This document shows, piece after piece, positions 5,347-64,000 of a DNA stretch of 64,000 nucleotides (positions are counted from its first letter, which is position 1; each line of letters opens with the position of its first letter). The notes below the pieces were generated by a model that worked only from the letters and a program-made list of their open reading frames with translations, had not been told where the DNA came from and did not search any database. Both the position numbers and the translations under genes were made by a program. Source of the DNA: Sipunculus nudus (lineage: Eukaryota > Annelida > Sipuncula > Golfingiida > Sipunculidae); the NCBI GenBank assembly GCA_026874595.1, contig CM049311.1, positions 39,080,676 to 39,144,675 on the forward strand. Direction: 5' to 3'.

Positions 5347-8300
5347 TAGCGAACCTGTGAGCTTATGCGATGGTGCGGTGTCGTCCGTCGTCCGTCATCT
5401 GTTGTGCGTTGTCTGTACGTTAACCATAGCTATCTCAAAAATGGCAGGAGCTAGCATCACCAAATATTTTGCAAATAATCAGTCATCCAAAAAACTATAT
5501 CGGATTTTGTTTATTTTTTTTCTAACTGCATCTTCTTAGATTATATAAGGAAAAAGCTAAAAAAACTTTAAAAATCTTCTCCTCTGAAACTGTCCAGCCA
5601 AATTGTCCAATATTTCACAGAAATTATCCCAGGAATAATCTCTCTCAAGTTTGTTCAAATGGTTCCAGTTCAGAGATTTTTGGCCGAGTTACAGGAGGTT
5701 GGACTTTGTTACCTGTGCAAAAAAGCATATTAAAATTTAAATCTCAGAAACGGCTGGAGCTGTCATCACCAAATTTTATGCCAATGTTGGTCACATAAGT
5801 CATATCTGAAATTGAGGTATTGGTGGCGCCACCTGCATCGGCCTTTTTTGTACGGGGTCATCAGTGCCTGTATCACACTGAGGGCTACAAATAACTTCTT
5901 CTCTGAAACCATATGGCCAAAATGTTTAATATCGCACAGAAATGATCCTAGGGTAGTGCTTTCTGAAGTTTGTTCAAATGGTCACTTTTCAGTGACTTTT
6001 GGCTAAGTTATGGGAAGCTAAATTTAGTCATATGCCATAACAGCCCATATTAGCTCAGTGGCTACATAGATCTTCTTCTCAAAAACCACTGGGCCAAATT
6101 CTTAAATCTCACACATTAATTATCCTCAGATGTTGATAATTCAATTTTGTTCAAATGGTTTTGGTTCAGTGCTTTTTGGCTGAGTTACGGGAAGCTGAAC
6201 TTAGCCAGTTTTCTGTATCTTCCTATATGAGTTATAAACCTGCAAAACATTTTTCGACTGATGCCACTGAAGCCAGTTTGTTAAATATTTTACAAAAATA
6301 ATCCCTACAATTATTCTTATAATAAATGTCATTAATGGTTCCACATGAATGATTTTTGGCTGAATTATGGAGCTTGAATTGAGTCATTTTACCATATATG
6401 TTAGCTGTGTGATGCTGTTACATCTAGCCTGACACTAGTTTATCAGCATCTATTACATCATGCCACTAGACATTTAGATTTCAGGTTATCTTTGGTTAAT
6501 ATTGACAAGAAAATTTTTTTTAAAGCTTTTAAAAAATTTAGATTTATGATTTAAGTTATTCATCATACTAGGCAATGTTTCAATCATGGATATTCAGCTC
6601 TCTGTGGCTATATAAAGACAACTGTACTTGGATTATAAATTATTGATATCCCTATACTCAACTTAAATCAAAAATTTGCCATCAGTGAGATATATCTGTA
6701 TTTTATTTTTGCATTCAGTATGTATCCATAATAATTTTAAATATATTCCTGATTTCTTTCTTATAAAAAGTCGGCTGAAAAGCATTTTGTATTGGGAAAA
6801 TAAATTTCAAAGTTATTACAAGTAGGGACCACTTTTGTGTACAGATTGCAGCACTTGGTTTACCATTGGCAGTTTGCCAGTACCTTGATGTTGGCCATTA
6901 GCCAAGATGATGTCAGCTCTATAAATAGTTTTGGCACAGTGCCAGGATTGGAAGAGGTGCAGCCAAGTATAGGTCAAGAGTTCACTTAGTGCAGTAGCTG
7001 CATTCTATTTATAGCTTTGGCAGACTGCCAACTGTATCAGATTATGCAACAGGTCAAGAGTTCACTCAGTGCAGCTAGGTACAGGGCAAAAATTCACTCA
7101 GTCTAGCCAGGTGCAGGTCAAGGGTTCACTCAGTGCAGTAGCTTGAGGCAGGAATTTGTCACAGGTCACTCAGGGGCAACTGCCTTACTCACCTAAGCCT
7201 TGTCAGCCCAGTGCATCAAAATCTGGGGAAGTTTGATGTATTGGATTGATATTTTTACCTGTCTATGCGTCTTTGATGGTATTCTCATTTACAAGACAGG
7301 TGGTGCCACCTACATTGACTTTTGCAGTGTATGCGCCTGCTTATTTCTACAAAGGAATTTTATACATCAGCCTAAAATTGGGCATGTTTATACATATCGG
7401 GTAGCTTTATAGTGTACAAAACTGGTGGTGCCACCTACAATAATTTTTGCACAGTGTATGTCCCTGCTTATTTCATAGGAGGGGTTTGTTTGACATACTG
7501 GTGGTGCCAGCTACAATCATTGTATCCGCCAAAACAGAGTTTGACGGATACTATGTTTTCAGTCGGACGCGGATGCTGCAGCCATCGCCGTATAGGTTTC
7601 CGGAGAACTCCTCCATAACCACTGGGCAGAATTTTTAAAATTCCGAATTATGATCGGTCATATTTGAACTGCTGCGCCCTCAGTTTTGGTTGACCTCTGA
7701 CCTTTCCTCTCTGCCCAGCGTCCATTTGTGTGTCTGTTTCCACACATAAACCCACATATCTCCGGAACCGTTTGACCGATAAGGCTAAAGATTTTGCACA
7801 AATGTAGCCCTTGGAAAGCTTTATAACATACACTAAAAATGGTGGCGCCACCTGCAACCATTTTTGCAGAGCGTCCATCTGTTCATCAGCCTTGGGATAA
7901 AAACACTCATATCTCTGCATTGGTTGTACTTATCCACCTGAAATGTTGCATGTGTATACATTCTGGACAGCTTTCTTGATTTTATGACAGGTGGCGCCAC
8001 CTACATTCACATTTAAGCTGCAGACATCCAAGCTCATATCTCGGGAACCATTTGACCAGTTGGGCCAAAATTTTGCATGTCTATAGATCTCCCATAGCTC
8101 TTTATCATATGCAAAACTGGTGGTGCCACCTGCACCAGTTTTTGCACAGCGTCCATCTGTTCATCTGCCTTGGGATAAAATCACTCATATCTCGGCAGTG
8201 GTTTGACTTATCCACCTGATATTTTGCAGGTTTATACATCATTGACAGCTTTCTTGATTTTATGACAGGTTGCGCCACCTACATTCACTTTTAAGCTGCA

Positions 8301-9233
8301 GACATCCAAGCTCATATCTCGGGAACCGTTTGACCAGTTGGACCAAAATTTTGCATATGTATAGATATCCCATAGCTCTTTATCTAATGCAAAACTGCTG
8401 GTGCCACCTGCCACTATTTTTGCACAGCGTCCATCTGTTCATCTGCCTTGGGATAAAATCACTCATATCACGGCAGTGATTTGACATACCCGCCTGAAAT
8501 TTTGCATGTGTATAGATCTCACATAGCTCTTAATCATACACAAAATTGGTGGTGCCATCTGCCACATTTTTTGCACAGCGTCCGTCTGTTTGTCTGCCGT
8601 GGACTAAAATCACTCATATCTCAGTAGTGGTTTGACTTACTCACCTGAAATTTTGCATGTTTATTCATCTTGGATAGCTTTCTGGATTTTTTGGCAGGTG
8701 GCGCCACTTAATTTATGTATATGCTGCAGACATTCAGGCTTATAACTCAGGACTGGTTTGACTTATTCCCCTGAAATTTTGCATGTGTATAGATTGCATA
8801 TCTCTGCATTGGTTGGACTTATCCACCTGAAATTTTGCATGTGTATACATTCTGGACAGCTTTCTTGATATTATGACAGGTGGCGCCACCTACATACACA
8901 TTTCAGCTGCAGACATCCAGGCTATTATGCAACACACCTCACTCTATTTCCCCTTGCCACTGAATCTATTCCTCACTTCACCTTTCCCACTCTGATTTTG
9001 GCAGATACAGGTAGATGCTTGTTGACTACCCATATTCTAGTTTTTGTGTTGTGTGCACCCATGCCAGAATTGCAGCAGTGATGTATGTTTAATTGTTTCT
9101 TGTTCTAAGTGTTTAGTACTTGCATTGTTCATATACATGTTACACATGTTCTTGAAAAGAAATGGTCCAGCATTGAAGCATTATACCTGGTGTAAACTCA
9201 TTGCACAGGTTCGCATTAGGCCTGTAGGCCTTG
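5347..9233 (+). mobile_element. Helentron/HINE-like element, family B, with nested family A
   Basis: The 5' end is TAGCGAACCTGTG and the 3' end holds the exact inverse CACAGGTTCGC (9204-9214), then the hairpin AGGCCTGTAGGCCT and CTTG before TT. The 11-bp asymmetric inverted repeat (5349-5359 with 9204-9214) is perfect. A GTCCGTCGTCCGTC run and GTTAAC follow the 5' end. The interior has one perfect GGTGGCGCCACC (5822) and repeated GGTCAAGAGTTCACTCAGTGCAG near 6960-7140. Without the family A insertion at 7521-9040 it is about 2.4 kb. I see no Rep/helicase coding, so it is non-autonomous. Confidence 0.75.
7521..9040 (+). mobile_element. Helentron/HINE-like element, family A, nested in B
   Basis: It begins TGTATCCGCC with a 5' hairpin and ends with GCAGATACA (a decayed copy of GGCGGATACA), a GTAG-TTGACTAC hairpin and TATTCTAG. 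The centre is built from about 280-bp tandem units, each carrying two GGTGGCGCCACC-type palindromes (for example 7841, 7990, 8879), many decayed at the central CpG. The host site is known: the paralogous B copy near 16019 lacks the insertion. Confidence 0.78.
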
Positions 9234-12158
9234 TTTATTAAAAACCTATTTTCACACTTCAGGACAGCCTAACTACGAAACCACTCACCTGTTTTTCCTC
9301 ATATTTACCATAAATATTCCTCTATATAGTTCCTATGTACATGCCAGAAATTAGGTCTGTATTATATGATTTAAAAAAAGTTATGGGCTCAAACATAATG
9401 AATTTTGTAAAAAATCAGGAAAGATATTTGATCACTGAACACAAAACATTTTAAAGCTATGGACTTTTTTCCAGTAATATATCTTTTATTAATAAAAATT
9501 AAATTGTATACCCAAAATTAGATCAAAATCTGTTAAATTTTTAAAAATATTAGCAAAAATAAAAAATTGGTACCTTAAATTTTGCCTAAATTTTACCATG
9601 GCACATTTTTTTCTTATAAGTACATTTGATTTAATTTTCACAGCCAGTTTACATATGGATTTAATCTGATGAATTTTGAATTTGAAAGTATAAGCTTAAA
9701 AAATAGTCTAGCTATTGAAGTTTTTTAGAAGACTTAATGTATTTGTATTTTCTAGCACCATGACCCTACTTTTGTTTACCTGGTAATCCAAAAATTGGCA
9801 TAATGTTAGATGTAATTGTAAATATTCATATTCTTCCATACATTTCCTATGTACATACCAAAATTTAGGTCAGTATTGCATAATTTGTTGAAGTTATAGG
9901 CTCAAACATAATGCACTTTGTAAAAATTCAGGATATATATTTACTCACTTAACATAAGAATGGCTGAGACTTTTTATCAGGAATATAACATCATTTAATC
10001 AAGATTCAATTGTATACAGAAAATTAGATCTGAAATTTGCAATTTTTTTAAAGTTATTAGCATAAACATAAAATCAGTACCTTAAATTTTGCCCAACTTA
10101 GGCCACGGCACAATTTTTTCCTGTAAGTACTGTGGATGTTATTTTAACAGCATGTACACAAAAGGATTAAATCTTAAAATTTTAATCTTTAAAATCTTAA
10201 ATATGAAAAATAAAAGCTGCAAATTAGGCTAGTTATTGAATTTGTTTGGAGGCTCTTGTTGTATTCCCTTACATTGTCAAGCAGTCCATTGAGGTCACTG
10301 TAGGTCATTCAATGCAACTCTCTATGCTCCCCCAGGCTGTTATGTAATCCCATCACTCCAGCAAGCCCTCTCTCTTGTTGAGCTTGATCAGGCTGCCAGC
10401 ATAAATACCACAGGGAGCCTTTCTCTCTCCCCCCCCCCCCCACCCCATTCTGTTGACAGACCTGTATTCTAAACAAAATGAATCTTATAATTTCACATTT
10501 TTTCAGCGAGGAACAGTAACAACAGAGACCCCTCACTGAACCCACCGCTTCGATACACAGGACTAATATACAAGACAAAGCTGATAATTTTAATATTAAA
10601 AAATTCTTTTTGTTGAGACTTTGACAATTTTGATTTTCAAAGAAAAAAATGTTCAGGAATTTAATCCTAATATTCATATATGGTAAAATATTAGGACCTA
10701 ATGAAAGTGCTAACTGACAAGATTTAAGAAGATATAAATACTTTGTAGCATTTCGTTTATATCTCTTAAAGTTGGTGGGGCCTAGTTATCTAGTTTTTAG
10801 CCCTCAGCCCTTAGGCTGATGGGCTATTGTCGTCACCCAAGCTGTCCGTCCGTCCGTCGGGCGTCCGTTAACTTTTACCTTGTGAGCGGGATATCTTGAA
10901 AAGGATTCACCATCACAATTTTATTTCCTCGGTAAAGATGTATATCGACAAAATCTCGGTCAAGTTCGAAGATGGGTGACCTTGACCTATTTTTCTACAT
11001 TTTAGAGCTGATTATAGAAAAACACTTAGATGCTTATTACTCAGTAACCATTTGGTGGATTTTCACAAAACTTACTATGATTATTGGGACTGATAGTCTG
11101 TACCTGCTACACAAGTTTGGTGGCGCCACCTACAATTTCTGATTTTTAATCAATTTTTATCAGATTTTTCAACTTTGGGCTTGTGAGCGGGATATCTCTA
11201 AAAGGATTCACCGTAGGAATATTATTTTTTCGGTGAAGATGTATATTGACAAAATCTCAGTCAAGTTTGAAGATGGGTGACCTTGACCTATTTTTCTACA
11301 TTTCAGAGCTGATTTAGAAGCTTATTTCTCAGGAACCATTTGGTGGATTTTCACAATACTTACTATAATCAAAGGGACTGATGGTCTCTAACTGCTGCAC
11401 GAGTTTGGGGGGGCAACCTACAATTTCTGATTTTTAATGAATTTTTCTTGGATTTTTCAACTTTGTCCTTGTGAGCAGGACATCTCTTCAATGATTCACA
11501 ATAAGAATTTTATTTCTTTGGTGAAGATCTTTATCGACAAAATCTCGGTCAAGTTCGAAGATGGCTGACCTTGACCTACTTTTCAAGGTCACAGAGCTTA
11601 TAATAGAATAAAACTTAGAAGCTGATATTTCAGGAAGCATTTGGTGGATTGTTATGAATCATGGTACAGATATACATCCATGTGAGAACAGATATTTAGT
11701 ACTTGTTACTGTTACCAACTCTAAACACTGTTTCTATTGGCTGAGGGCTTTTGTCAGCTTCTGCTGATATTCTAGTTAAAATTAGAAACATTGGTCAAAC
11801 TTTGTGGGATTAATTCTTAACTCATATGGCCATATATTTAACTTTTGAAAAATTAATTACCTTCACACATTATTTGTTTATGAAATGGAACTTTTATATG
11901 ACACTTACCGTAAGCCCATTTTTTCCCTTGGTGCATCACTAAATGGTTTCAGGCCAAAGGTTTCATTTATTACACAGTCCATATGCTTTAGCTCATGTCC
12001 ATTATTCTATAATTTACAGAGTTTCATTTAAGCTGGGCCATTTTCTCTTAGCTTTTCAAATGGTAATATACATGGAAAAACCATGAGAAACAAAAATTTT
12101 TTGCAGTTACTAATATTTTCCAAAATTCAGCTGAGCGACGTGACCCATAGGTCCCTTG
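9234..12158 (+). mobile_element. Family D element, 5'-truncated, with nested family C
   Basis: The body aligns by eye with the other D copies (AAAAACC-ATTTTCACACTTCAGGAC, then AAACATAATGCA-TTTGTAAAAA). The 3' end is TCAGCTGAGC (12127-12136), a GACCCATAGGTC hairpin and CCTTG. The D 5' hairpin is missing; the left edge abuts the 3' end of family B. Two diverged body copies seem to follow one another. A poly-C run lies at about 10431-10442. Confidence 0.6.
10798..11775 (+). mobile_element. Helentron/HINE-like element, family C, complete
   Basis: This is a compact 978-bp copy nested in D. The 5' end is TAGCCCTCAGCCC with hairpin partner GGCTGATGGGCT, then GTCCGTCCGTC and GTTAAC. The 3' end holds GGCTGAGGGCT (11739-11749), the perfect inverse of AGCCCTCAGCC (10799-10809), then the hairpin TCAGC-TTCT-GCTGA and TATTCTAG. 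The interior is about two and a half tandem units of about 300 bp with GAAGATGGGTGACCTTGACC; the first carries GGTGGCGCCACC at 11119. Confidence 0.8.
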
Positions 12159-13619
12159 TTTCCCTGTAAGCACTGTCTTTAATTTACACAGCATATATAC
12201 ATAAGGATTTAATCTTTTAAAATCTGAAATTTCACAGGAATTGGTTGAAAAGAGTAGCTTTTATTCAAGTTTTCATACACCATGTCAAGTGTTGTTTACA
12301 TCTAGCCCATCTAGTAGTACAGCCTTCTCTTGCATTATGTAACCCACCCAGGTTGCTTGCCTTGGCTAAGCTTGGCCACTACAAGCAGGGTTCCCCTCTG
12401 CCCTGCACTCCCCCCTCCCCCCCCCCCCCCCCCCGATGGTGCATAAACTAGATGAATGTTATAATTTTCTCTATTTTATTTTATTCTTGTTACAATGATT
12501 AAAGTTCACATTTAATTGTGTCCACAAAGTGGTGTATTGCTATGAAAGTGTGGATGTTCATCAGATAAGTAATTCCTTAATTCAGAAGAGTAAAAACTTC
12601 ACCAGGTGTGAAATTGACTATTAATTCCAGTTATAAATTATAGCTGAGATAGTAATTAGCACAATGATATTGTTTGTCCCTTATTCAAGAATTTTATTCT
12701 TGTAACAATGATTAAAGTTCACATTTAATTGTGTCCACAAAGTGGTGTATTGCTATGTAAGTGTTGATGTTCATCACATAAGTAATTCCTTAATTCAGAA
12801 GAGTAAAAACTTCACCAGGTGTGAAATTGACTATTAATTTCAGTAATAAATTATAACTGAGATAGTAATTAGCACAATGATATTGTTTGTCCCTTATTCA
12901 ACCAACAGTGTGTATACTTTATTTGAAAAGATGTTTTTATTTTATCAAATTTACTGAATCTTTTATTTTATTTCAGTGAATAAAATTAAGCATGTACTGA
13001 AAACTCTAATGTGCAAAACTTTTTAATAGTGTTTCAAGGAATAATCTTGAAGATGCCATGTTGTGGCATTATTTTCTTTTAAATTCAGTTTAAACATTTG
13101 TGATTTAAAAATAATAAAATATATGTGTATGCATAATATGACCCAATATGAGTGACACTCTGGATATATAATGATTGCAACTTAGATTTCTAATATTTTA
13201 ACGTATATTTTCAGTTTTTTTAATTACAAATTTATAAAACTTGTAAATAAAAAAATGAATCAGATAAAAACTATTAATGGAAAATGGATATGCTAAAAAA
13301 ATAGGCTTATATGTAAAATTAAATGCATTATTCCCTTGAAAGTGAAATAAAAGTATTAGTCCATTCTGTCCACCTGTAAATTTTTCATATGCATCACAGT
13401 ATCTCAAAACTTTTACTGTTTTTCTTCATGACAGTCTTGTCAGAGTATTAGTTTGCAATCATATATTTAGAACTTTACTATAACCAAGTAGGAGGGCCCC
13501 TTTCCTCTTAGCTTCTCCTATGCTTATATAAATGAAAAACATTACAATAGAATATTTTGCATTTGCAAAAATTTCAAACTTCAGCTGAGCACCGTGACCC
13601 ATGGCCCATGGGTCCCTTG
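12159..13619 (+). mobile_element. Family D 3' portion
   Basis: It has the D body (TAAGCACTGT, ATATATACATAAGG, poly-C at about 12410-12434, an internal duplication at about 12470-12660 and 12690-12890). It ends TCAGCTGAGC, a GACCCATG-CCATGGGTC hairpin and CCTTG. It is near-identical over more than 1 kb to 43060-44340, so both derive from recent relatives. Confidence 0.65.
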
Positions 13620-13968: not shown

Positions 13969-16203
13969 TAGCGAATCGTGAGCTAATGCGATAGTGTGGC
14001 GTCGTCTGTATGTTAACCCATACTATTTTAAAAAACAACTGGAGCTAGCATCATGAAGTTTAATGCAAAAAATAGCCATCTCAAAAACTCTGCATTTTCT
14101 TAGATTTAATAGAGAAAAAGCTAAAAAAACCTTTAAAATCTTCTTCTCCGAAACGGTCAAGCCAAATTAATATTTCACAGAAATAATCTTTTATATCATC
14201 TCTCTTAAATTTGTTCGAATGATTCAAGTTCGGTGAATTTTGGCCGAGTTACAGGAAGTTGAACTAAGTCAACTGTCCAAAAAAGCATACTTAAATGACA
14301 GTCTTGCGCCACCTGCATTGACTTTTTTTTGTACGGGGGTCATTGGTCATCTGTAAATTAACCCATTATTTCTCAGGAATAGCAGGAGCTACCATCCCCA
14401 GATAATCTGTCACATATCAAATGTTGTGGGATTCAGCTTATTTTTTTGCTATCTGCATTTACTAAGATTTCATAGGGAAAAAGCTGATAAACCTTTAAAA
14501 GTCTTCTTCTTGTAAACTGGTCCAGCCAAATTGTTCAGTATTTTACAGAAATGATCCCAGAGACAAGCCCTCTCAAGTTTGTTCAAATGGTTTGCATTTG
14601 ATGAATTTCAGTGGTGTTACACAAATTTGAACAGTCATTTGGCCAATCAAGCATACTGACATAGTAATCTCAGAAATGACAGAAGCTAGCATTACTAAGT
14701 ATTGTGCAAATGTTGGTCACATGACTCATATTTGAAGTTGCAGATTTTGTGGTGCCACCTACATTTACCTGTTTTTTATGGGCAAAAACCTCATAATTTT
14801 AGCCTCTTTCAGCTTATAATGTTTATGATGAAACTGTCAAGTTGGATCGTTCAATTTTTCAGAAGAATTATCCTAGGACATAGTTCTTTCAATTATATTA
14901 GAAAAGCTTAAGTTGGTCTTATGGCCATTATTATGTCTATTTCAAACTGAGGACTGCAAAACTGTTCTTCTACAAAATTATTGTTTCAAGTCAAACTTCT
15001 GTAACATTGCACAAAAATTATTCTTAGGTGGCCTTTGTTCAAGTTTATTTGAATGATTTTTGGCAGAATTATTGGACCTTTTTATATTCTAGATATTTTG
15101 ATAAAAAGTTTATGAATATGTCAGCTTGAAAAAAAGCATTTTAGCCAAAGTCTTTCAGTATGTGTAAACAGATTTACCAACAGGCCATGATTGTGTCTGT
15201 ATCTTTAAATAGGTTAAGAAACTGCCAACTGTTTCAGATTTGGCAACAGATCAAGAGTTCATTCAGTGCAGCCAGATATAGGTCAAGAGTTCAGTCAGTG
15301 CAGCCAACCACAAGACATGTGAACACCTCATGGGCACAATGTGATCACCTCATGGGTGTCATGCCCCTAAGGGCTGCATGTGGAGCCAATCTGTGAGTTT
15401 ATGCAATGGTGTGGCTACTATTTCAGATTGGCAACAGAGCAAAGGTCAGACTGGATCTATTTATAGCTTTGGCAGACTGCCAACTGTGTCAGATTATGCA
15501 ACAGGTCAAGAGATCACTCAGTGCAGCCAGGTACAGGTAAAAAGTTCACTCAGTCTAGCCAGGTGCAGGTCATGAGTTCACTCAGTGTAGTAGCCTGAGC
15601 CAGCAAATTTGTCACAGTTCACTTGGGGCAACTGCCTTTCTCACCTAAGCCTGGTCAGCCCCATGCATCAGACTCAAGGTAAGTTTGATGTATTGGCCTG
15701 ATATTTTGACCTGTCTATGTGTCTTTGATGGCTTTATCATTCACAAGACAGGTGTCGCCACCTACAATGACTTTTGCAAAGTGTATGTGCCTGCCTATTT
15801 CTACAGAGGAATGTGATATATCAGCCTGAAATTTGGCATATTTATACATATCGAGTAGCTTTGTCCTATACAAGACTGGTGGTGCCACCTACAATAATTT
15901 TGGCACAGTGTGTGTCCCTGCTTATTTCTGAGGAGGGGTTTGATATATCAGTCTGAAATTGGGCATATGTATATATCTCTGATAGCTTCGTTGTATACAA
16001 GACTGGTGGGGCCAGCTACAATCATTTTTGTGTTGTGTGCACCCATGCCAGAATTTCAGCAGTGATGTTTGTGTAATTGTTTCTTATTCAAAATGTTTAG
16101 TACATGCATTGTTCATATACTTGAGAAGTAATGGTCCAGCATTGAAGCATTATACCTGGTGTATTTCCCAATGCACAGGTTCGCATTAGGCCTGTAGGCC
16201 TTG
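13969..16203 (+). mobile_element. Family B element without the family A insertion
   Basis: The 5' end TAGCGAATCGTGAGC is a diverged terminus. The 3' end GCACAGGTTCGC, AGGCCTGTAGGCCT, TTG is intact. It is about 2.2 kb. At about 16019 it reads ACAATCATTTTTGTGTTGTG uninterrupted, giving the empty site for family A. No coding capacity was recognised. Confidence 0.72.
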
Positions 16204-19838: not shown

Positions 19839-19873
19839 TCATTTGCTGAGCTTCATGACCCTTTGGTCACTTG
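19839..19873 (+). mobile_element. Solitary family D-type 3' end
   Basis: GCTGAGC followed by TTCATGACCCTTTGGTCACTTG resembles the D terminus (inverted repeat, GACC/GGTC hairpin, CTTG before TT). The body is not recognisable. Confidence 0.4.
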
Positions 19874-19895
19874 TTATTAAGAATTGACATTACCA

Positions 19896-38009: not shown

Positions 38010-38330
38010 TAGCTCAGCTGACTTTAGGTAATCTGAGCTAAAGCAATGGCCAAAATCTGTTAACAGGACACTTTTTGAAACTGTTTGAGCAATAACATCT
38101 AAAATTTAGTATATGGTAAGATGTCCCTAAAGTCTCCTACCAAATGTGACTTTGTTCCTTCGAAAAATAAAGGAAAACCCACTGTTTTCCAGAGAGAACC
38201 TTTTGTTACACTTCAAAAGTGCCTAATATTCAAAATTCCAAACTTTCTAAATATATTTGATACCAGAAACATAATAACACCAGTCACTAAATCACCAAGG
38301 AAATAATCCAGTTATCAAACACAGCGAAGG
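38010..38330 (+). mobile_element. Family D 5' fragment
   Basis: TTAGCTCAGCTGACTTTAGG with partner AATCTGAGCTAA, then GTTAACAGGACA and a diverged piece of D body. The 3' part is missing. Confidence 0.6.
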
Positions 38331-40440: not shown

Positions 40441-40441
40441 T

Positions 40442-50796: not shown

Positions 50797-51685
50797 TGTA
50801 TCGCCAGACATAGTCTGGAGATACTATGGTTTAGGCACGGTCGCGCCGCCGCCGCCGCCGCCGCAGAGATTTCTTTTGGACACAATAACTCAAAAAATAT
50901 TTCACGGATCTTTACCAAACTTGGTATATGTATAGATATGGGTGAGAGGACGACGCCTATTTAAAATGAGGTCATGACCTCAACTAGGAGAGTGACCTTG
51001 ACCTTGAATAGGTTCAATTTTGGGGAAAATCACACAAATTCTTAAATATCTCAAGAAAACTTGCATTGATTGATCCCAAAATCAAGTTGATCGAAGATCA
51101 TGGATAGGGTTGTCATGTTCCAGAAACTGGTGGCGCCACCTATTATTCTTTACTTGTTTTCATGCCGTTTAATATCCCCATCATTGCCATTTATCAGTAC
51201 TGAGAGCATTATAAGTCAAAAACTAATGGACAAATTTCTTTCATATTATGCATATACATGGATATGGGTTATAGGATAATGTTTATTTGAATAGGGGTCA
51301 TGACCTTTCCAATGAGTGGCCTTGACCTTGAATATTGCCATATATGGTGAAAATTACACAAAAACATTAATATCTCAATAAGGGATGCATGCATTGGTCC
51401 AAAAATCAACATGTTCGAAGATCTTGGAAAGTATTGTCATGTACCGGAAACAGGTGGCGCCACCTGTTATTCTTTTACTTGTTTTGTGCCATTTTATACC
51501 CCATCATTGCCATTTATCAGTACTGTGAGCATTATAAGTCAAAAACTAATGGACAGATTTCTTGCATATACATAGACATGGGTTAGGGGATGATGTATAT
51601 TGAAATTTAGATCATGACCTTTTCTATGAGAATGACCTTTTCTATGAGTGTGGTCTGATATTAATTGTTGCTGAAGATGGGGGGC
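50797..51685 (+). mobile_element. Family F element (A-related ends), 3' incomplete
   Basis: The 5' end TGTATCGCCAGAC with partner GTCTGGAGATAC forms a hairpin, followed by a (GCC)n run at 50841-50865, as in family A, but the body differs. Two units of about 324 bp follow, each ending in GGTGGCGCCACC (51129, 51453), and share TGCCATTTATCAGTACTG and AAAAACTAATGGACA. No terminal 3' hairpin was found, so the right boundary is approximate. Confidence 0.6.
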
Positions 51686-52332
51686 AAGGTATAGGTCAAG
51701 AGTTCACTCAGTGCAGAAGCTGTATTCTATTTATAGCTTTGGTAGACTGCTCACTGCATCATATTTGGCACCATATTTAAGTTCAGCCTGAATCTATTTA
51801 TAGCTTTGGCAGACTGCCAACTGTGTCAGATTATGCAACAGGTCAAGAGTTCACTCAGTGCAGCCAGGTACAGGTCAAAAGTTCACTCAGTCTAGCCAGG
51901 TGCAGGTCAAGAGTTCACTCAATGCAGTAGCTTGAGGCAGCAATTTGTCACAGGTCACTCAGGGGCAACTGCCTTACTCACCTAAGCCTTGTCAGCCCAG
52001 TGCATCAAACTCTGGGGAAGTTTGATGTATTGGACTGATACCTGTCTATGCGTCTTTGATGGTATTCTCATATACATGACAGGTGGTGCCACCTACATTG
52101 ACTTTTGCAGTGTATGCACCTGCTTATTTCTACATCAGCCTAAAATTGGGTATGTTTATACATATCCAGTAGCTTTAGAGTGTACAAGACTGGTGGAGCC
52201 ACCTACAATAATTTTTGCACAGTGTATGTCCCTGCTTATTTCAACAGAGGGGTTTGACATATCAGTCTGACATTGGGCATATGTATATATCTCATCGTTG
52301 TATATAAGACTGGTGGTGCCAGCTACAATCAT

Positions 52333-52449
52333 TGTATCTGCCAAAACAGTTTTACTATGTTTTACTATGTTTCTAGTCGGAGGCCGACGCTGCCGCCATC
52401 ACCGCATAGGTTTCCGGAGAAGTCCTCCATAACCACAGGGCAGAATTAT
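52333..52449 (+). mobile_element. Family A 5' remnant
   Basis: TGTATCTGCCAAAACAG and about 100 bp of the A 5' block (TTTCCGGAGAAGTCCTCC, ACCACAGGGCAGAATT) sit at the same host position as in two other B copies. The remnant is cut by the start of the next B element. Confidence 0.65.
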
Positions 52450-55400
52450 TAGCGAACCTGTGAGCTTATGCGATGGTGCGGCGTCGTCCGTCAAGTGTCG
52501 TGCGTCATCTGTACGTTAACCATAGCTATCTCAAAATGGCAGGAGCTAGCATCCCCAAATATTTTGCAAATAATCAGTCATCCAAAAAACTATATCAGAT
52601 TTTGTTTATTTTTTTTCTAACTTCATTTTCTTAGATTTCAGAGGGAAAAAGCTGAAAAAGCTTTAAAAATCTTCTTCTCCGAAATTGTCCAGCCAAATTG
52701 TCCAATATTTCACAGAAATGATCCCTGGAACAATCTTTCTCAAGTTTGTTCGAATCGTTCCAGTTCAGAGATTTTTGGCTGAGTTACAGGAGGTTAAACT
52801 TTGTTACCTGTGCAAAAAAGCATATTAAAATTTAAATCTCAGAAACGGCCAGGGCTATCATCACAAAATTTTATGCCAATGTTGGTCACATAAGTCATAT
52901 CTGAAATTGAGGTATTGGTGGCGCCACCTGCATCTGCCTATTTTGTACGGGGTCATCAGTGCCTGTATCACACTGAGGGCTACAAAAAACTTCTTCTCTG
53001 AAACCATATGGCCAAAATGTTTAATATCGCACAGAAATGATCCTAGGGTAGTGCTTTCTGAAGTTTGTTCAAATGGTCTCAGTTCAGTGACTTTTGGCTA
53101 AGTTATGGGAAGCTGAATTTAGTCATATGCCATAACAGCCCATTTTAGCTCAGTGGCTACAAAGATCTTCTTCTCAAAAACCACTAGGCCAAATTCTTAA
53201 ATCTCACACATTAATTATCCTTAGATGTTGATAATTCAAGTTTGTTCAAATGGTTTTGGTTCAGTGCTTTTTGGCTGAGTTACGGTAGCTGAACTTGGCC
53301 AGTTTGCTGCATCTTCCTATATGAGTTATAAACCTGCAAAATGTATTTCGACTGATGACATTGAAGCCAGTTTGTTAAATAATTTCCAAGAATAATCCCT
53401 ACAATTATTTTTATAATAATTGTCATTAATGGTTCCACATGAATGATATTTGGCTGAATTATGGAGCTTGAATTGAGTCATTTTAACATATATGTTAGCT
53501 GTGTGATGCTGTTACATCTAGCCTGGCACCAGTTTATCAGCATCTATTACATCATGCCACTAGACATTTAGATTTCAGGTTATCTTTGGTTAATATTGTT
53601 AAAGAAAGTTTTTTTTAAAAGCTTTTAAAAAATTTAGATTTATGATTTAAGTTATTCATCATACCAGGCAATGTTACAATCATGGATATTCAGTTCTCTG
53701 TGGCTATATAGAGACAACTGTTCGTGGATTATACATTATTGGTATCCCTACTCAACTTAATTCAAGAATTTGCCATCAATGAGATATATCTGTATTTTAA
53801 TTTGCATTCAGTATGTATCCATAATAATTTTACATATATTCCTGATTTCTTTATTATGAAAAGTCAGCTGAAAAGCATTTTGTATTGGGAAAATAAATTT
53901 CAAAGTTATCACAAGTAGGGAGCACTTTTGTGTACAGATGGCAGCACTTGGTTTACCATTGGCAGATTGCCAGTGCCTTGATGTTGGCCATTAGCCAAGA
54001 TGATTTCAGCTCTATAAATAGTTTTGGCACAGTGCCAGGATTGGAAGAAGTGCAGCCAGGTATAGGTCAAGAGTTCACTCAGTGCAGTAGCTGCATTCTA
54101 CTTATAGCTTTGGCAGACTGCTCACTGCATCATATTTGGCACCAGAGTGCAGCCTGAATCTATTTATAGCTTTGGCAGACTGCCAACTGTGTCAGATTAT
54201 GCAACAGGTCAAGAATTCACTCAGTGCAGCTAGGTACAGGTCAAAAGTTCACTCAGTCTAGCCAGGTGCAGGTCAAGGGTTCACTCAGTGCAGTAGCTTG
54301 AGGCAGCAATTTGTCACAGGTCACTCGGGGGCAACTGCCTTACTCACCTAAGCCTTGTCAGCCCAGTGCATCAAACTCTGGGGAAGTTTGATGTATTGGA
54401 TTGATTTTTTTACCTGTCTATGCGTCTTTGATGGTATTCTCATTTACAAGACAGGTGGTGCCACCTACATTGACTTTTGCAGTGTATACGCCTGCTTATT
54501 TCTACAGAGGAATTTTATACATCAGCCTAAAATTGGGCATGTATATACATATCGGGTAGCTTTATAGTGAACAAAACTGGTGGCGCCACGTACAATAATT
54601 TTTGCACAGTGTATGTCCCTGCTTATTTCATAGGAGGGGTTTGTTTGACATACTGGTGGTGCCAGCTACAATCATTGTATCCGCCAAAACAGAGTTTTGC
54701 GGATACTTTGTTTTCAGTCGGACGCCTAAGCTGCCGCCATTGCCGCATAGGTTTCCGGAGAACTCCTCCATAACCACTGGGCAGAATTTTTTAAAATTCG
54801 GAATTATGATCGGTCATATGTGAAATGCTGCGCCCTCATTTTTGGTTGACCTCTGACCTTTCCACATAGGTTTCCGGAGAACTCCTCCATAACCACTGGG
54901 CAGAATTTTTTTAAAATTCGGAATTATGATCGGTCATATGTGAAATGCTGCGCCCTCATTTTTGGTTGACCTCTGACCTTTCCACACATAAACCCACATA
55001 TCTCGGGAACCGTTTGACCGATAAGGCTAAAGATTTTGCACAAATGTAGCCCTTTGATATCTTTATAACATACACTAAAAATGGTGGTGCCACCTGCAAC
55101 CATTTTTACACAGCGTCCATCTGCTGTTCAGCCTTGGGATAAAAACACTCATAACTCTGCATTGGTTGGACTTATCCACCTGAAATTTTGCATGTGTATA
55201 CAAGCTTTCTTGATTTTATGACAGGTGGCGCCACCTACATACATATTTTGGCTGCAGACATCCAGGCTATTATGCAACACACCTCACTCTATTTCCCCTT
55301 GCCACTCAATCTATGCCTCACTTCACCTTTCCCACTCTGATTTTGGCAGATACACGTAGTCACTTGTTGACTACCCATATTCTAGTTTTTCTGTTGTGTG

Positions 55401-55578
55401 CACCCATGCCAGAATTGCAGCAGTGATGTTTGTTTAATTGTTTCTTGTTCTAAGTGTTTAGTACTTGCATTGTTCATATACATGTTACACATGTTCTTGA
55501 AAAGTAATGGTCCAGCATTGGAGCATTATACCTGGTGTAATCTCATTGCACAGGTTCGCATTAGGCCTGTAGGCCTTG
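52450..55578 (+). mobile_element. Family B element with nested short A
   Basis: The 5' end is TAGCGAACCTGTGAGC. The 3' end is GCACAGGTTCGC, AGGCCTGTAGGCCT, TTG (55578). The body closely follows 5347-9233, and A is inserted at the same site (54676-55385). Confidence 0.72.
54676..55385 (+). mobile_element. Family A element, shortened, with internal duplication
   Basis: 5' TGTATCCGCC; 3' GGCAGATACA, GTAGTCAC-TTGTTGACTAC, TATTCTAG. At 710 bp it has lost most tandem units. A 120-bp block (CATAGGTTTCCGGAGAACTC to ACCTTTCCA) is duplicated in tandem at 54745 and 54865. Confidence 0.78.
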
Positions 55579-56928
55579 TTTAAAATTCGGAATTATGATT
55601 GGTCAAATGTGAACTGCTGCGCCTACATTTTTGGTTGACCTCTGACCTTTCCTCTCTGCCCAGCGTCCATTTGTTTGTCTGTTTCCACACATAAACCCAC
55701 ATATCTCGGGAACCTTTTGACCGATAAGGCTAAAGATTTTGCACAAATGTAGCCCTTGGAAAGCTTTATAACATACACTAAAACATGGTGGCACCACCTG
55801 CAACCATTTTTGCACAGCGTCCATCTGTTCATCTGCCTTGGGATAAAAATACTCATATCTCTGCATTGGTTGGACTTTCCATCTGAAATTTTGCATGTGT
55901 ATACATCCTGAACAGCTTTCTTGATTTTATGACAGGTGGCGCCACCTACATTCACATTTAAGCTGCAGACATCCAAGCTCATATCTCGGGAACAGTTTGA
56001 CCAGTTGGGCCAAAATTTTGCATGTGTATAGATTTCCCATAGCTCTTTATCATACGCAAAACTGGTGGTGCCACCTGCAACCATTTTTGCACAGTGTCCA
56101 TCTGTTCATCTGTCTTGGGATAAAATCACTAATATCTAGGCAGTGCTTTGACTTATCCACCTGATATTTTGCAGGTTTTTACATCCTTGACAGCTTTCTT
56201 GATTGTATGACTGATGGCACCATCTACATTCAAATATATGCTGCAGACATTCAAGCTCATATCTCAGGAACCATTTACCCGATTTGGCAAAAATTTTGTG
56301 TGTTTATAGATCTTACATAGCTCTTTTTCATACGCTAAACTGGTGGTGCCACTTGCAATCATTTTTGCACAGCATCCGTCTGTTTGTTTGCCGTGGCTTA
56401 AAATCACTCATATCTCGGCAGTGGTTTGACAAAGCTGCCTAAAATTTTGCAGGTTTATTCATGTTGGATAGCTTTCTGGATATTGTGGCAGGTGGCACCA
56501 CCTACATTTATGTATACGCTGCAGACATTCAGGCTTATATCTCAGGACTGGTTTGACATATCCCCCTGAAATTAGGATGTGTATAGATCTCACATAGCTC
56601 TTAATCATACACAAAATTGGTTGCGCCACCTGCCACCATTTTTGCACAGCGTCCATCTTCTTTCTGCCACGGGCTAAAATCACTCATATCTTAGTAGTGG
56701 TTTGACTTATCTGCCTAAAATTTTGCATGTTTATTCATCTTGGACAGCTTTCTGGATTTTGTGATAGGTGGTGCAACCTACATACACATTTCAGCTGCAG
56801 ACATCCAGGCTATTATGCAACACACCTCACTCTATTTCCCCTTGCCACTCAATCCATGCCTCACTTCACCTTTCCTACTCTGATTTTGGTGGATACACGT
56901 AGTCGCTTGTTGACTACCCATATTCTAG
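55579..56928 (+). mobile_element. Family A element, 5'-truncated
   Basis: It starts abruptly inside the A body (AAAATTCGGAATTATGATTGG) next to the 3' end of B, and continues through several 280-bp units to GGTGGATACACGTAGTCGCTTG and CTAG. Together with the B tail to its right it repeats the preceding A-plus-B-tail order, so it likely arose by tandem duplication or template switching. Confidence 0.7.
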
Positions 56929-57121
56929 TTTTTCTGTTGTGTGCACCCATGCCAGAATTGCAGCAGTGATGTTTGTTTAATTGTTTCTTGTTCTAAGTGT
57001 TTAGTACTTGCATTGTTCATATACATGTTACACATGTTCTTGAAAAGTAATGGTCCAGCATTGAAGCATTATACCTGGTGTAATCTCATTGCACAGGTTC
57101 GCATTAGGCCTGTAGGCCTTG
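56929..57121 (+). mobile_element. Second family B 3' tail
   Basis: From TTTTTCTGTTGTGTGCACCC to AGGCCTGTAGGCCTTG this is nearly identical to 55386-55578. Confidence 0.8.
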
Positions 57122-57122
57122 T

Positions 57123-57251
57123 TGCTTGCCGGAATCAAAGATTTCGGCAAGCATATTGGTCAGTTGCGTATGTCTGTTTGTCTGTCTGTCTGTCTGTTTG
57201 TTGCTTGCCGGAATCAAAGATTTCGGCAAGCATATTGGTCAGTTGCGTATA

Positions 57252-57288
<37 letters not shown>

Positions 57289-60157
57289 TTGTTTGTCACC
57301 ACTCTCCTGGCCACAATTTTGCCACAATAACCTTGAAACTTACAGGGATGTTGGAAAACATAATTTCTAGATGCCCTATTGTTTTTGGTTAAAATAGGTC
57401 AAAGGTCAAGGTCAAGGTCGTCAAAACTTCTCAAAACGTTTTTTTCTTCATATCTTTGTGACTATTAGTCCTATCTACTTCAACAATAGCTCATTTTAAT
57501 CGTCATTCCAAGGCCTGTCATCTGGTGTGTAGCTGACTCAAATTTGCCGTAACCATGGTTACAATTTTTGGGGGAAAAGTCATGATATTCGAAAATAAGG
57601 GATCTTATTTTTCTAACTTTGTCAGTTTTAAAGCTAGAGTGATCTAGTTTTTTGCATCAGGTAGCATTCAACTAGTACTACAAGATTTTATTACAAGTCT
57701 TGCAGTATCTCGTAAAATATCTCGTGAATAGAGATATTTCGAGATTTCATTCATCTTGCGCCAAAGGCCACATTATTGCAGGAATCTTTTTGAATCTGAC
57801 ATATCATAAGTCCTACACTAGTATCTCGAAATTGTTTTTTCATTTTTTGAATATGGCTGCTAGGGGGCGCTGCACACGACCCTCACAGATATCATTACAT
57901 TGGCCATATCTCTAAAACCCAAAGCCTCAATTACATAAACTATAGCTTATTTTTCCCTCTGAGTCTTCTCCATAAACGGATAATGTCATCTGGTCTCAAT
58001 GTTGTGTCACTGTGTCATTGTGTCCGTCTGTTTGTCAGTTGTCCTCAAATTTGCCTGCTTGCTTTTGCGTCTCACATATAGCATTCTACAGGCCACAGTT
58101 TTGAAAGAATCCTTTTGAAACTATTACATCTTAAGTCTTACACTAATATCTCGAAACGAATTTTTCATTTTCCGGATATGGCCACTAGGGGGGGCTGAAC
58201 TCGAACCTCTCCCAGCATATCATGCTTTTTTGTTTGTTTGTTTGTCATCAATCTCCTGACCACAATTTTGCCACAATAACCTTGAAACTTACAGGGATGA
58301 TGAAAAACATAATTTCTAGGTGTCCTTTTGTTTCTGGCCAAAATAGGTCAAAGGTCAAGGTCAAGGTCGTCAAAACTTCTCAAAAGGGTTTTTTCTTCAT
58401 ATCTTTGTGACTATTAGTCGTATCTACTTCAACGATAGCTCATTTTAATCATCATTCCAAGGCCTGTCATCTGGTGTGTAGCTGACGCAAATTTGCCGTA
58501 ACCATGGTTACGAATTTTGGGGAAAGTCATGATATTTGAAAATAAGGGGTCTTATTTTTCCAACTTTGTCAGTTTTAAAGCTAGAGTGATCTAGTTTTTT
58601 GCATCAGGTAGCATTCAACTAGTACTACAAGATTTTATAAAAAGTCTTGTAGTATCTCGTAAAATATCTCGTGAATAGAGATATTTCGAGATTTCATTCA
58701 TCTTGCGTCAAAGGCCACATTATTGCAGGAACCTTTTTGAAACTGTCAAATCATAAGTCCTACACTAGTATCTCGAAATTGTTTTTTCATTTTTTGAATA
58801 TGGCTGCTAGGGGGCGCTGCACACAACCCTCACACACATATCATTACATTGGCCATATCTCTTAAACCCAAAGCTTACATTACATAAACTATAGCTTATT
58901 TTTTCCCTCTGAGTCTTCTCCATAAACTGATAATGTCATCTGGTCTCAATGTTGTGTCACTTTGTCGGTGTGTCTGTCTGTTTGTCAGTTGTCCTCAAAT
59001 TCGCCTGCTTGCTCTTGCGTCTCACATATAGCATTCTACAGGCCACAGTTTTGAAAGAATCCTTTTGAAACTATTACATCTTAAGTCTTACACTAATATC
59101 TCAAAACAAATTTTCCATTTTCCGGATATGGCCGCTAGGGGGCACTGAACTCGAACCTCTCCCAACATATCATGCTTTGGCAATATCTCCAAATCTATAA
59201 ACCTCAGTTACATAAACTGTAGCTTTTTTCTTCCTTTGAGTCTTCTTCATAACCTGGAGAAGTCATCTGGACTCAATCTTGAGTCACTTTGTCAGTGTGT
59301 CCGTCTGTTTGTCAGTTGTCCTAAAATTCGCCTGCTTGCTGGTTCTTGCGTCTCACATATAGCATTCTATAGGCCACAGTTTTGATGAAATCCTTTTGAA
59401 ACTATTACACCTTATGTCTTACACTAATATCTAGAAAATAAATTTTTCATTTTCCGGATATGGCCACAAGTGGGCGCTGCACACGACCCTCACACACATA
59501 CCAATGTATTGGCCATATCTGTACACCCAAAGCCTCAGTTACATAAACTAAAGCTTATTTTCTTCCTTTGAGTCTTCTGCATAACCTGATTAAGGCATCT
59601 GGTTTCAATCTTCTGTCACTTTGACAGTGTGTCCATCTGTTTGTACGTTATCCTCAAAGTCGCCTGCTTGCTGGTTCTTACGCCTTACATATAGCATTCT
59701 ACAGGCCACAGCTTTGACGGAATCCTTTTGAAACTGGGACATCTTATGTCATACACTAATAATACGAAACGCATTTGTCATCTTCGGAATATGTCCGCTA
59801 GAGGGCGCTACAGACGAACCTCCCAAGTATATAATTAATTCGCCATACCTCCAAAACTATAAATCTAAATTACATAAATTATAACTCATTTTCTTCCTTT
59901 GAATCTTCTCCATAACTAGGTAAAGTCATCTGGTGTCAATCTTGTCTCACAAAGTCAGTATGTCTGTCTGTTCGTCTTTTGTTGTCAGCTTTGTCTGCTT
60001 CCCTGTTCTTTTGTCTCATATGTCATTCTACAGGCCACATATTCTCAGCAATGTCCCTGAGAGTCATTCCATTAATAGAAAACCGACAATATGTACTGTC
60101 TGTCTGTCTGTGTTTCACTTCTGATTTCCGGCAAGCGTTCGACCTATGGTCGTCTAG
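57123..60157 (+). mobile_element. Helentron/HINE-like element, family E
   Basis: 5' TGCTTGCCGGAATC with partner GATTTCGGCAAGC forms a hairpin. The hairpin plus TGTCTGTCTG block is duplicated 80 bp downstream (57203). 3' TTCCGGCAAGC (60126-60136) is the perfect inverse of GCTTGCCGGAA (57124-57134), followed by the hairpin CGACC-TAT-GGTCG and TCTAG. The body is built from tandem units of about 330 bp, arranged also in longer blocks of about 950 bp that begin CACCACTCTCCTGGCCACAA or a variant. Each unit ends in a TGGCCGCTAGGGGGCGCTG-type motif. Confidence 0.8.
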
Positions 60158-62856
60158 TTTGTTTGTTTGTCACCACTCTCCTGGCCACAATTTTGCCACA
60201 ATAACCTTGAAACTTACAGGGATGTTGGAAAATATAATTTCTAGGTGCCCTATTGTTTTTGGTTAAAATAGGTCAAAGGTCAAGGTCAAGGTCGTCAAAA
60301 CTTCTGAAAAGGGTTTTTTCTTCATATCTTTGTGACTATTAGTCGTATCTACTTCAACAATAGCTTATTTTAATCGTCATTCCAAGGCCTGTCATCTGGT
60401 GTGTAGCTGACTCAAATTTGCCGTAACCATGGTTACAAATTTCTAGGGAAAAGTCATGATATTCGAAAATAAGGGATCTTATTTTTCTAACTTTGTCAGT
60501 TTTAAAGCTAGAGTGATCTAGTTTTTTGCATCAGGTAGCATTCAACTAGTACTACAAGATTTTATTACAACTCTTGCAGTATCTCGTAAAATATCTCGTG
60601 AATAGAGATATTTCGAGATTTCATTCATCTTGCGCCAAAGGCCACATTATTGCAGGAATCTTTTTGAAACTGACATATCATAAGTCCTACACTAGTATCT
60701 CGAAATTTTTTTTTCATTTTTTTAATATGGCTGCTAGGGGGCGCTGAACACGACCCTCACACAGATATCATTACATTGGCCATATCTCTAAAACCCAAAG
60801 CCTCAATTACATAAACTATAGCTTATTTTTTCCCTCTGAGTCTTCTCCATAAACTGATAATGTCATCTGGTCTCAATCTTGTGTCACTTTGTCAGTGTGT
60901 CCGTCTGTTTGTCAGTTGTCCTCAAATTCGCCTGCTTGCTCTTGCGTCTCACATATAGCATTCTACAGGCCACAGTTTTGAAAGAATGCTTTTGAAACTA
61001 TTACATCTTAAGTCTGACACTAATATCTCGAAACCAATTTTTCATTTTTTTGATATAGCCGCTAGGGGGCGCTGAACTCGAACCTCTCCCAACATATCAT
61101 GCTTTGGCAATATCTCCAAAACTATAAACCTCAGTTACATAGACTGTAGGTTTTTTCTTCCTTTGAGTTGTCTCCATAATCTGGAGTAGTCATCTGGACT
61201 CAGTCTTGAGTCACTTTGTCAGTGTGTCCGTCTGTTTGTCAGTTGTCCTCAAATTCGCCTACTTGCTGGTTCTTGTTTGTTTGTCACCACTCTCCTGGCC
61301 ACAATTTTGCCACAATAACCTTGAAACTTACAGGGATGATGAAAAAGGAAATTTCTAGGTGCCCTATTGTTTTTGGTTAATATAGGTCAAAGGTCAAGTC
61401 AAGGTCGTCAAAACTTCTTAAAACGGTTTTTTCTCCATATCTGTGTGACTTTCAGTTGTATCTATGTCAACAATAGCTCATTTTAATCGTCGTTCCACGG
61501 CCTGTCATTTGGTGTGTAGCTGATTAAAATTTGGTGTAACCATGGTTACAAATTTTGGGGGAAAAGTCAGGATATTCGAAAATAAGGGGTCTTATTTTTC
61601 TAACTTTGTCAGTTTTAAAGCTAGAGTGATCTAGTTTTTTGCATCAGGTAGCATTTAACTAGAACTACAAGATTTTATTACAACTCTTGCAGTATCTCAT
61701 AAAATATCTCGTGAATAGAGATATTTCGAGATTTCATTCATCTTGCGCCAAAGGCCACATTATTGCAGGAATCTTTTTGAAACTGACATATCATAAGTCC
61801 TACACTAGTATCTCGAATTTGTTTTTTCATTTTTTGAATATGACTGCTAGGGGGCGCTGCAAACGACCCTCACACATATATCATTACATTGGCCATATCG
61901 CTAAAACCCAAAGCCTCAATTACATAAACTTTAGCTTATTTTTTTCCTCTGAGTCTTCTCCATAAACTGATAATGTCATCTGGTCTCAATCTTGTGTCAC
62001 TTTGTCAGTGTGTCCGTCTGTTTGTCAGTTGTCCTCAAATTTGCCTGCTTGCTGGTTCTTGCGTCTCACATATAGCATTCTACAGGCCACAGTTTTTAAA
62101 AAATCATTTGAAAACTGATGCATATTATGTTTCACAGAAATATCTCTAAACTTTTTTTCTATTTTCCGGATATGGCCGCTAGGTGGCGCTGCACATGACC
62201 CTCACACACATATCATTATATTGACCATATCTCTAAAACCCAAAGGCACAATTACAGAAAGTATGGCTTATTTTCTTTCCCTGAGTCTTTTCCATGACCT
62301 AGTAATGTCATCTGGTCTCAATCTTGTGTCACTTTGTCAGTGTGTCTGTTTGTCAGTTGTCCTAAAATCCGCCTACTTGCTGGTTCTTGCGTCTCATATA
62401 TAGCATTCTAAAGGCCACAGTTTTTTTTTCAGGAATCCTTTTAAAACTGGTACATCTTATGTGTTACACTAATATCTCAAAACAGATTTTTCATTTTTCG
62501 GATATAGCCACTAGGGGGCGCTGCACTTTCACCTCCCCAACATATCATATTTTGGCTATCTCTCCAAAATTATAAACCTTACATACATAAACTATCACTA
62601 ATTTTGCTCTTCTTCACCTTCGGCGCTTTTGTCTGTAATCTGTTATCACAGATGTGTCAGTATGTCTGTCTGTTCGTCTTTTGTTGTCAGCTTTGTCTGC
62701 TTCCTCGTTGCTTTGTCTGATATGTCATTTTACAGGCCACAATTTCTCAACAAACGCTGAGTGTCATTCAAATAATAGAAAACCCACAATATGATCTGTC
62801 TGTCCGTCTGTCTGTCATTTCAACTTCTGGCAAGCGCTCGACCACTGGTCGTCTAG
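60158..62856 (+). mobile_element. Family E element lacking the 5' hairpin
   Basis: It starts at TTTGTTTGTTTGTCACCACTC directly after the CTAG end of the previous E. It repeats the same body and ends TTCTGGCAAGC, CGACC-ACT-GGTCG, TCTAG. This looks like head-to-tail E copies, with the second lacking a 5' end. Confidence 0.75.
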
Positions 62857-63667
62857 TTTAATATTTTACAAGAATAATCACCTGAATGATTCTTATAATA
62901 ATTGTCTTTTATGGTTCCAAATAATGAATTTTGGCTGAATTATAAAGATTGAATTGAGTCATTTTACCATATATGTTAGCTGTGTGAAGCAGATACATCT
63001 AGCCTGGCACCAGTTTATCAGCATCCATTACATCATGCCTATAGACATTTAGATTTCAGGTTATCTTTGGTTAATATTGACAAGAATGTAGATTTATGAT
63101 TTTAGATTTTCCCCATGCCGGGCAATGTTTACAATCACAGGTATGCGTTAACCCATACTATTTCGAAAACGATTGGAGCTAGCATCATGAAATTTAATGC
63201 AAAAAATTAGCCATCTGAAAAAATCTGCATTTTCTCAGATTTTATAAAGAAAAAACTAAAAAACCTTTAAAAATCTTCTCCTATGAGACGGTGAAGCCAA
63301 CTTGTTCAATATTTCACAGAAATAATCTTTTATACCATCTCCCTCAAGTTTGTTCAAATGGTTCAAGTTTGGTGAATTTTGGCCGAATTACGGGAAGTTG
63401 AACCTATTCATCTGTCCAAAAAAGCATACTAAAATGACAGTCTCAGAAACGGCCAGAGCTATCATCACCAAATTTTATGCCACTGTTGGTCACATGAGTC
63501 ATATATTCATGTATTGGTGGCACCACCTGCATTGACCTTTTTTTGTACGGGGGTCATTGGTCATCTGTATATTAACCCATAATTTCTCAGGAAAAGCAGG
63601 AGCTACCATCCCCAGATTTAATGCAATAATCTGTCACATATCAAATGTTGTGGGATTCAGCTTTTTT
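62857..63667 (+). mobile_element. Family B interior fragments
   Basis: TTTAATATTTTACAAGAATAATC and the following sequence match B interiors (compare 6285-6560). After a jump near 63145 the B 5' half resumes (GTTAACCCATACTATTTCG), with a GGTGGCACCACC variant at 63517. Confidence 0.6.
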
Positions 63668-64000
63668 TAGCCCTCAGCCCTTAGGCAGATGGGCTATTAT
63701 CGTCACCCAAGCTGTCCGTCCGTCCGTCCGTCCATCCGTCCGGCGTCCGTTAACTTTTACCTTGTGAGCGGGATATCTTGAAAAGGATTCACCGTCAGAA
63801 TTTTATTTCCTTGGTAAAGATGTATTTCGACAAAATCTCGGTCAAGTTCGAAGATGGGTGACCTTGACCTATTTTTCTACATTTTAGAGCTGATTATAGA
63901 AAAACACTTAGATGCTTATTACTCAGGAACCATTTGGTGGATTTTCACAAAACTTACTATGATTATTGGGACTGATAGTCTGTACCTGCTATACAAGTTT
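63668..64000 (+). mobile_element. Family C element, cut by the window edge
   Basis: The 5' end TAGCCCTCAGCCC with partner GGCAGATGGGCT, then GTCCGTCCGTCCGTCC and GTTAAC, nearly identical to 10798-11110. The copy is inserted in a T-run of family B. Its 3' part lies outside. Confidence 0.8.

Follow-up and report, generated by a model that had tools for sequence, protein, structure and literature searches.

A stretch of 64,000 nucleotides from the sipunculan Sipunculus nudus (GenBank assembly GCA_026874595.1, contig CM049311.1, positions 39,080,676 to 39,144,675; hereafter the window) contains five families of repeated elements, A to E, which share one arrangement of their ends and are very probably HINEs, non-autonomous rolling-circle transposons of the Helentron/Helitron2 group. 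All counts of ends and empty sites given below were made within the window. Elements of the five families read, in order, a 5′ repeat, a microsatellite, mostly tandem central repeats, the inverse of the 5′ repeat, a hairpin, CTAG or CTTG (CTWG), and TT. The inverted repeats are perfect and 9–11 bp long, and in all five families the 5′ one lies at or near the terminus and the 3′ one well inside the element. An earlier note on this DNA had listed one inverse pair per family, with a hairpin and CT(A/T)G following the 3′ copy; the five pairs are indeed perfect, their ten coordinates are exact, and the succession of 3′ copy, hairpin, CTAG or CTTG, and TT is found in every family.

The 5′ ends read TGTATCC, GCGAACC, AGCCCTC, GCTCAGC and GCTTGCC. 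The final motif is CTAG in families A, C and E and CTTG in B and D. With the first letter of the 3′ repeat taken as nucleotide 1, the last G of the motif falls at position 30 in B, 31 in D, 32 in E, 37 in C and 41 in A; in A, the CTAG at 35977 marks the 3′ end, and a CTTG sits in the hairpin loop. The microsatellite is present throughout, of GTCC/GTCT type in B–E and GCC in A. Further ends were located by searching the window with 50–75 nt queries from each end and keeping rows with an E-value below 0.05; a match of the C 5′ query at 33564–33593, which is D’s microsatellite, was left out of the counts. This search yielded 20 5′ ends (six A, six B including a doubtful one at 15385, two C, four D and two E) and 21 3′ ends (five A, five B, one C, eight D and two E), and CTWG is intact at 17 of the latter.

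When one copy per family was folded as single-stranded DNA and scored against shuffled sequences, the first 28–32 nt of the 5′ end folded far better than the shuffles in A (z = −7.15), C (−4.06), D (−4.87) and E (−5.29), the four of five families with a palindromic 5′ repeat or an adjacent inverted repeat. In all five families the 3′ repeat is followed, before the 3′ end, by a stem-loop (z = −5.06 for A, −2.19 for B, −3.65 for C, −2.96 for D and −3.98 for E). The A-like 5′ end at 50797 is diverged: its inner stem is altered in both arms, yet the sequence still folds (z = −6.45); the paired changes in this single copy fit selection on the palindrome.

The 3′ arrangement is well above chance on one strand. 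Against 100 windows simulated from dinucleotide frequencies, with a mean of 2.08 and a maximum of 8 per strand, a hairpin preceding CTWGTT occurs at 12 sites on the plus strand and at 2, the chance level, on the minus strand. Ten of the 12 are element ends, and those at 23348 and 41486 are not. Sites that also have an inverse 10-mer 300–5000 nt upstream number six on the plus strand and none on the minus strand (simulated mean 0.22, maximum 2); the corresponding counts are four and none for inverse 11-mers (0.07, 1) and six and none for 9-mers (0.75, 3). The scan misses the B end listed in the earlier note, where CTTG overlaps the stem, and the D end, which has a 4-bp stem.

Between these ends the bodies differ. 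Tandem central repeat units measure about 280 bp in A, 127 bp in B, 288 bp in C and 331 bp in E. The little body similarity ascribed to the five families applies to most pairs but not to A and B, whose central repeats are related: a motif is 66–67% alike over 209–255 bp in two of three B copies and 78% alike over 64 bp in the third. B and C have just a 24–30 bp stretch in common, and the remaining eight pairs gave no match at an E-value of 1e-3 in a self-comparison within the window. Both E copies possess an internal body repeat that restarts at a TTTG tract (58230 and 61273, within 57279–62856), with no E 3′ end before it. Ten open reading frames (ORFs) of the elements were scanned, and none matched a Pfam family above its cut-off (the window holds 92 ORFs of at least 75 codons); a match to Rep_OBD in one of the ten, from an E repeat (E-value 0.0043; 17.6 bits against a cut-off of 24.6), was set aside as chance and not a Rep protein.

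Insertion sites were sought by joining the flanks of 15 presumed elements and matching the joins to the window. Empty sites came to light for six joins: three for A copies lying in B, and one each for an A in D, an A in the 39-bp tandem array and a B in A. The three A copies in B occupy one identical site, whose empty versions lie at 16002–16103 and 49241–49349. For B in A, the empty site reads GAATTTTTTAAAATTC and the filled one GAATTATTA[GCGAACC ... CCTTG]TTTAAAATTC. In addition, the flanks of the outer of two nested E copies, joined across the inner copy, align at 195 of 199 positions to the inner copy’s uninterrupted start. The targets are T-runs or TTTG tracts; filled sites carry none to two extra Ts relative to empty ones, and run length differs between copies, with which a single-T duplication may be compatible. 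T-rich TT insertion without target modification is thus seen for A (in three contexts), B and E. At 49428–49435 and 57121–57124 an element begins about 2–5 nt past the 3′ end of another, as if the terminal T-run of an element were a favoured target.

These sites bear on what kind of transposon is present. Miniature inverted-repeat transposable elements (MITEs), the remains of cut-and-paste transposons that end in inverted repeats and duplicate their target site, would likewise show perfect 9–11 bp inverted repeats, and the bivalve element Pearl was first called a MITE before being moved to the non-autonomous Helentrons, as recounted in PMC7492417. Here, however, the 3′ repeat is internal in every family and followed by a hairpin and CTWG, and the empty sites, in T-runs that vary in length, reveal a duplication of one or two Ts at most, leaving a MITE origin highly improbable. 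Other transposons of the cut-and-paste type were rejected alike, since the repeats are not both terminal and no target-site duplication of more than one or two Ts accompanies them. The canonical Helitron (Helitron1) was also rejected: the elements lack a 5′ TC and insertion between A and T, and enter T-runs instead.

The assignment to HINEs, also the reading of the earlier note, is made because the end anatomy, the T-run empty sites without longer duplication and the published definition agree. Several observations weigh against it. Family B has no 5′ palindrome in the copy folded (z = −0.26), except that the doubtful B copy at 15385 has a distal inverted repeat of 9 bp (z = −1.94); four of the 21 3′ ends lack CTWG; and Tandem Repeats Finder reported no central array in either of the two full D copies. 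Among the 15 flank joins, seven gave no spanning match (B_5349, B_13971, C, both D and both E joins of that search), and two (B_49435 and B_47009) merely re-found neighbouring ends. For C and D, no empty site was found in the window.

The partner of these elements would be an autonomous element elsewhere; none was seen, and no search aimed at one was made. A putative Rep-helicase would nick the strand whose 5′ end carries the subterminal repeat; the nicked strand would be peeled off or copied as far as the 3′ signal made up of repeat, hairpin and CTWG, with the hairpin presumably acting as terminator; and the freed strand would be joined into a T-run with duplication of at most one or two Ts. 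That this partner is a Helitron2, which has a Rep-helicase without endonuclease, and not a strict Helentron is an unlikely alternative. Helitron2 elements are also described with terminal inverted repeats that are asymmetric and with a hairpin at either end (PMC4067079, PMC5148889). The insertion into T-runs at TT and the layout of microsatellite and central repeats agree with HINEs, but the target published for Helitron2, TTTT followed by T or C, is likewise T-rich (PMC5148889).

The transposon type itself is ordinary, having been described from oyster and other molluscs. The account of Cg_HINE from the Pacific oyster in PMC7492417 gives as its features an 11–12 bp subterminal inverted repeat (subTIR) with a complementary inverted repeat, a short microsatellite (GTCY/GTCC/GTCK in several of the elements), a satellite-like central array, and a 3′ subTIR followed by a palindrome. 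The same substructures occur here, with GTC-type microsatellites in B–E, and both there and here elements share or differ in their central repeats. This likeness is one of described structure, and that account, in the parts drawn on here, mentions neither nested composites nor an orientation effect. The same source ascribes a comparable architecture to Pearl, DTC84 and MgE of bivalves, Pearl with central repeats, again by description only. As summarized in PMC4067079, HINE/DINE-1 elements and Helentrons have palindromic subTIRs, one close to the 5′ terminus and the other set well back from the 3′ terminus, a 3′ stem-loop, and an unmodified T-rich target with a variable number of Ts, as found here; in a mite element of that study the 3′ repeat lies 38–60 bp from the end, compared with 19–31 nt from the end of the repeat to CTWG in our families. 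Helraiser, a canonical bat Helitron, also carries a 3′ hairpin before CTAG, portrayed as a terminator open to bypass, and differs in its 5′ TC end and in that no asymmetric inverted repeat figures in the description consulted (PMC4778049). Scans of viral contigs with one A and two D end patterns returned 0, 0 and 1 match; an IMG/VR viral contig (L001) matches the D-type 3′ hairpin pattern exactly, which may be chance.

Nesting is extensive. The B and D pairs of the earlier note each contain a nested A, and its E pair (57124 and 60126) has exact coordinates and repeats, but the two ends belong to two E copies, 57203–60157 lying inside 57124–62856. Between 49435 and 57121 four elements are stacked, B around A (52333–56928) around B (52452–55578) around A (54676–55385). 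A B element carrying A is found at three sites with different flanks, and the B parts 3′ of A are 97.4–99.5% alike among the three composites, compared with 92.6–93.8% and 79–81% to two B copies without A. These two observations suggest that the composite, B(A), moved as a unit: in the simplest account, A probably entered B once and B then moved past A’s internal 3′ signal. Other identities speak against a single, clean origin. The A parts are not grouped by composite: A 7521 shares 83.5% identity in its 5′ part with A 34549 and 77.1% with A 54676. The outer B, in its 5′ part, shares 85.5–86.4% with the other composites and 84.1% with a B lacking A. The copies may have been mixed by conversion or by slippage of repeats. 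A very unlikely alternative is that local segmental duplication or gene conversion, and not transposition, produced the nested and repeated copies. The region is rich in tandem repeats, and the inner and outer B form a mosaic with 3′ parts 99.5% and 5′ parts 86.4% alike, but the alignments end at element ends with differing flanks, and empty sites exist for nested A, B and E. On the strength of these empty sites, segmental duplication was rejected for the nested copies; gene conversion after insertion is possible.

Elements and element ends in the window
Feature	Coordinates	Strand	Evidence or remarks
B with nested A (composite B(A), copy 1)	5349..9233	+	B 3′ end CCTTG then TTT
A nested in B	7521..9040	+	empty sites 16002–16103, 49241–49349
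C, 288-bp central repeats	10799..11775	+	inverse pair, ends, repeats
B without A (empty-site reference); doubtful second B-like 5′ end at 15385	13971..16203	+	end matches
D interrupted by A	33516..37553	+	end matches
A nested in D	34549..35980	+	empty sites 42726–42892, 9821–9965, 33842–33949, 9333–9441
A in 39-bp tandem array	40442..41898	+	array copies 40323–40442, 41919–41984
D without A insert; 3′ end CCCTTATT, not CTWG	42471..44940	+	end matches
Further D 3′ end without CTWG, inside D 42471..44940	44313..44340	+	end matches
Diverged B; 3′ end GGCTTTTT, not CTWG; exact end in T-run unsure	47009..49428	+	end matches
Outer B(A) composite, begins within about 5 nt of preceding B 3′ end	49435..57121	+	end matches
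A-like 5′ end, palindrome changed yet paired	50797..50863	+	end match, folding
A of outer composite, interrupted by inner B(A)	52333..56928	+	site in B shared with 7521 and 54676 copies
Inner B(A) in outer A	52452..55578	+	empty sites 54716–54863, 7561–7716 and three more
A in inner B	54676..55385	+	end matches, empty sites
Outer E, begins 2 nt (TT) past a B 3′ end	57124..62856	+	ends, flank join
Inner E in outer E’s microsatellite	57203..60157	+	ends, flank join
Second C 5′ end, runs off window	63669..64000	+	end match
Further D 5′ end	33261..33320	+	end match
Further D 5′ end	38012..38043	+	end match
Further D 3′ end	2440..2470	+	end match
Further D 3′ end	12128..12158	+	end match
Further D 3′ end	13582..13619	+	end match
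Further D 3′ end	19843..19873	+	end match
Further D 3′ end without CTWG	27260..27290	+	end match

The composite would be a clear example of 3′-end bypass and not a new principle, because Helraiser is already known to bypass its 3′ end (PMC4778049) and Helitrons lying directly side by side are also on record (PMC4067079). Judged by eye, the 3′ ends look like two classes: those of A and C have several nucleotides including TATTCTAG following the hairpin, and those of B, D and E have a GRCC/GGYC hairpin near or overlapping CTWG. The proposal that all five families had long co-evolved with one replication machinery finds no support in these two classes or in a B that seems to have been mobilized past A’s 3′ signal; such mobilization points, if anything, to termination that leaks or to end recognition specific to each family.

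All 20 5′ ends and all 21 3′ ends lie on the plus strand; the minus-strand rows of the end search are 5′ ends matching their own fold-back arm, or the A 3′ query matching two A 5′ ends. The self-comparison gave 1093 plus-strand matches (self-match included) and four minus-strand matches, the latter all from short palindromes at 37131–37177 and 44516–44578. The 12 insertions with both ends located (two A, five B, one C, two D and two E) all run along the plus strand, which has a probability of 0.0002 at even odds (0.0005 two-sided) and about 0.001 at a plus-strand target share of 0.57; these odds were computed after the pattern had been noticed, and they assume an independence that insertions in one region may lack. 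Five of the 12 lie inside (A 34549, B 52452, E 57203) or against (B 49435, E 57124) an element of the same direction, and for the other seven the probability is 0.008 at even odds (two-sided 0.016) and 0.02 when the share is 0.57. Of these seven, C and B 5349 may themselves sit in D-like sequence.

Target composition alone is too small a cause: the plus strand has more T than A (21487 versus 19045), and its share of T-runs is 0.56–0.62 for TT to TTTTTT across the window and 0.55 for TTT to TTTTT outside masked elements. Strand-directed insertion, selection in introns, a preference for existing elements and chance are all possible explanations. A more specific version, which we regard as improbable, is that the Helentron enzyme joins the element into T-runs left single-stranded by transcription, or by replication forks that always travel one way, giving insertions in one orientation within a region. 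Strand-directed insertion would parallel the orientation effect of bacterial IS200/IS605; such bias is reported for IS200/IS605 and Tn7 (sources including PMC5371812), and a literature search on Helitron/DINE-1 orientation, judged mostly from listings, showed none for eukaryotic Helitrons. In the Helraiser work, lagging-strand replication or supercoiling is named as a possible source of single strands for cleavage (PMC4778049), and the donor is stated to have to be double-stranded (PMC5876387).

The plus strand is probably the sense strand of a TULP4-like host gene, as suggested by two weak Pfam matches on it, both below the curated cut-offs: a SOCS box at about 19.5 kb (E-value 0.0027) and a Tub domain at 42.0 kb (E-value 0.039 alone, and 0.00064, still below the cut-off, after joining a frame at 37.6 kb that alone matches nothing). 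A SOCS box followed by a Tub domain resembles the order in TULP4. A search of the PDB with one exon gave nothing significant (best E-value 1.6). A 401-codon open frame without Pfam match at 45402–46604 on the plus strand is perhaps a large exon of the host gene, and a 38-copy array of a 38-bp unit occupies 25647–27097.

Empty sites within a single window fix the insertion site without outside data, and the B elements carrying A at three sites suggest that one family’s 3′ terminator can ride silently inside another. Whether eukaryotic rolling-circle transposons respond to strand polarity on insertion, be it that of transcription or of replication, could be tested cheaply across a genome by way of the one-way orientation seen here.

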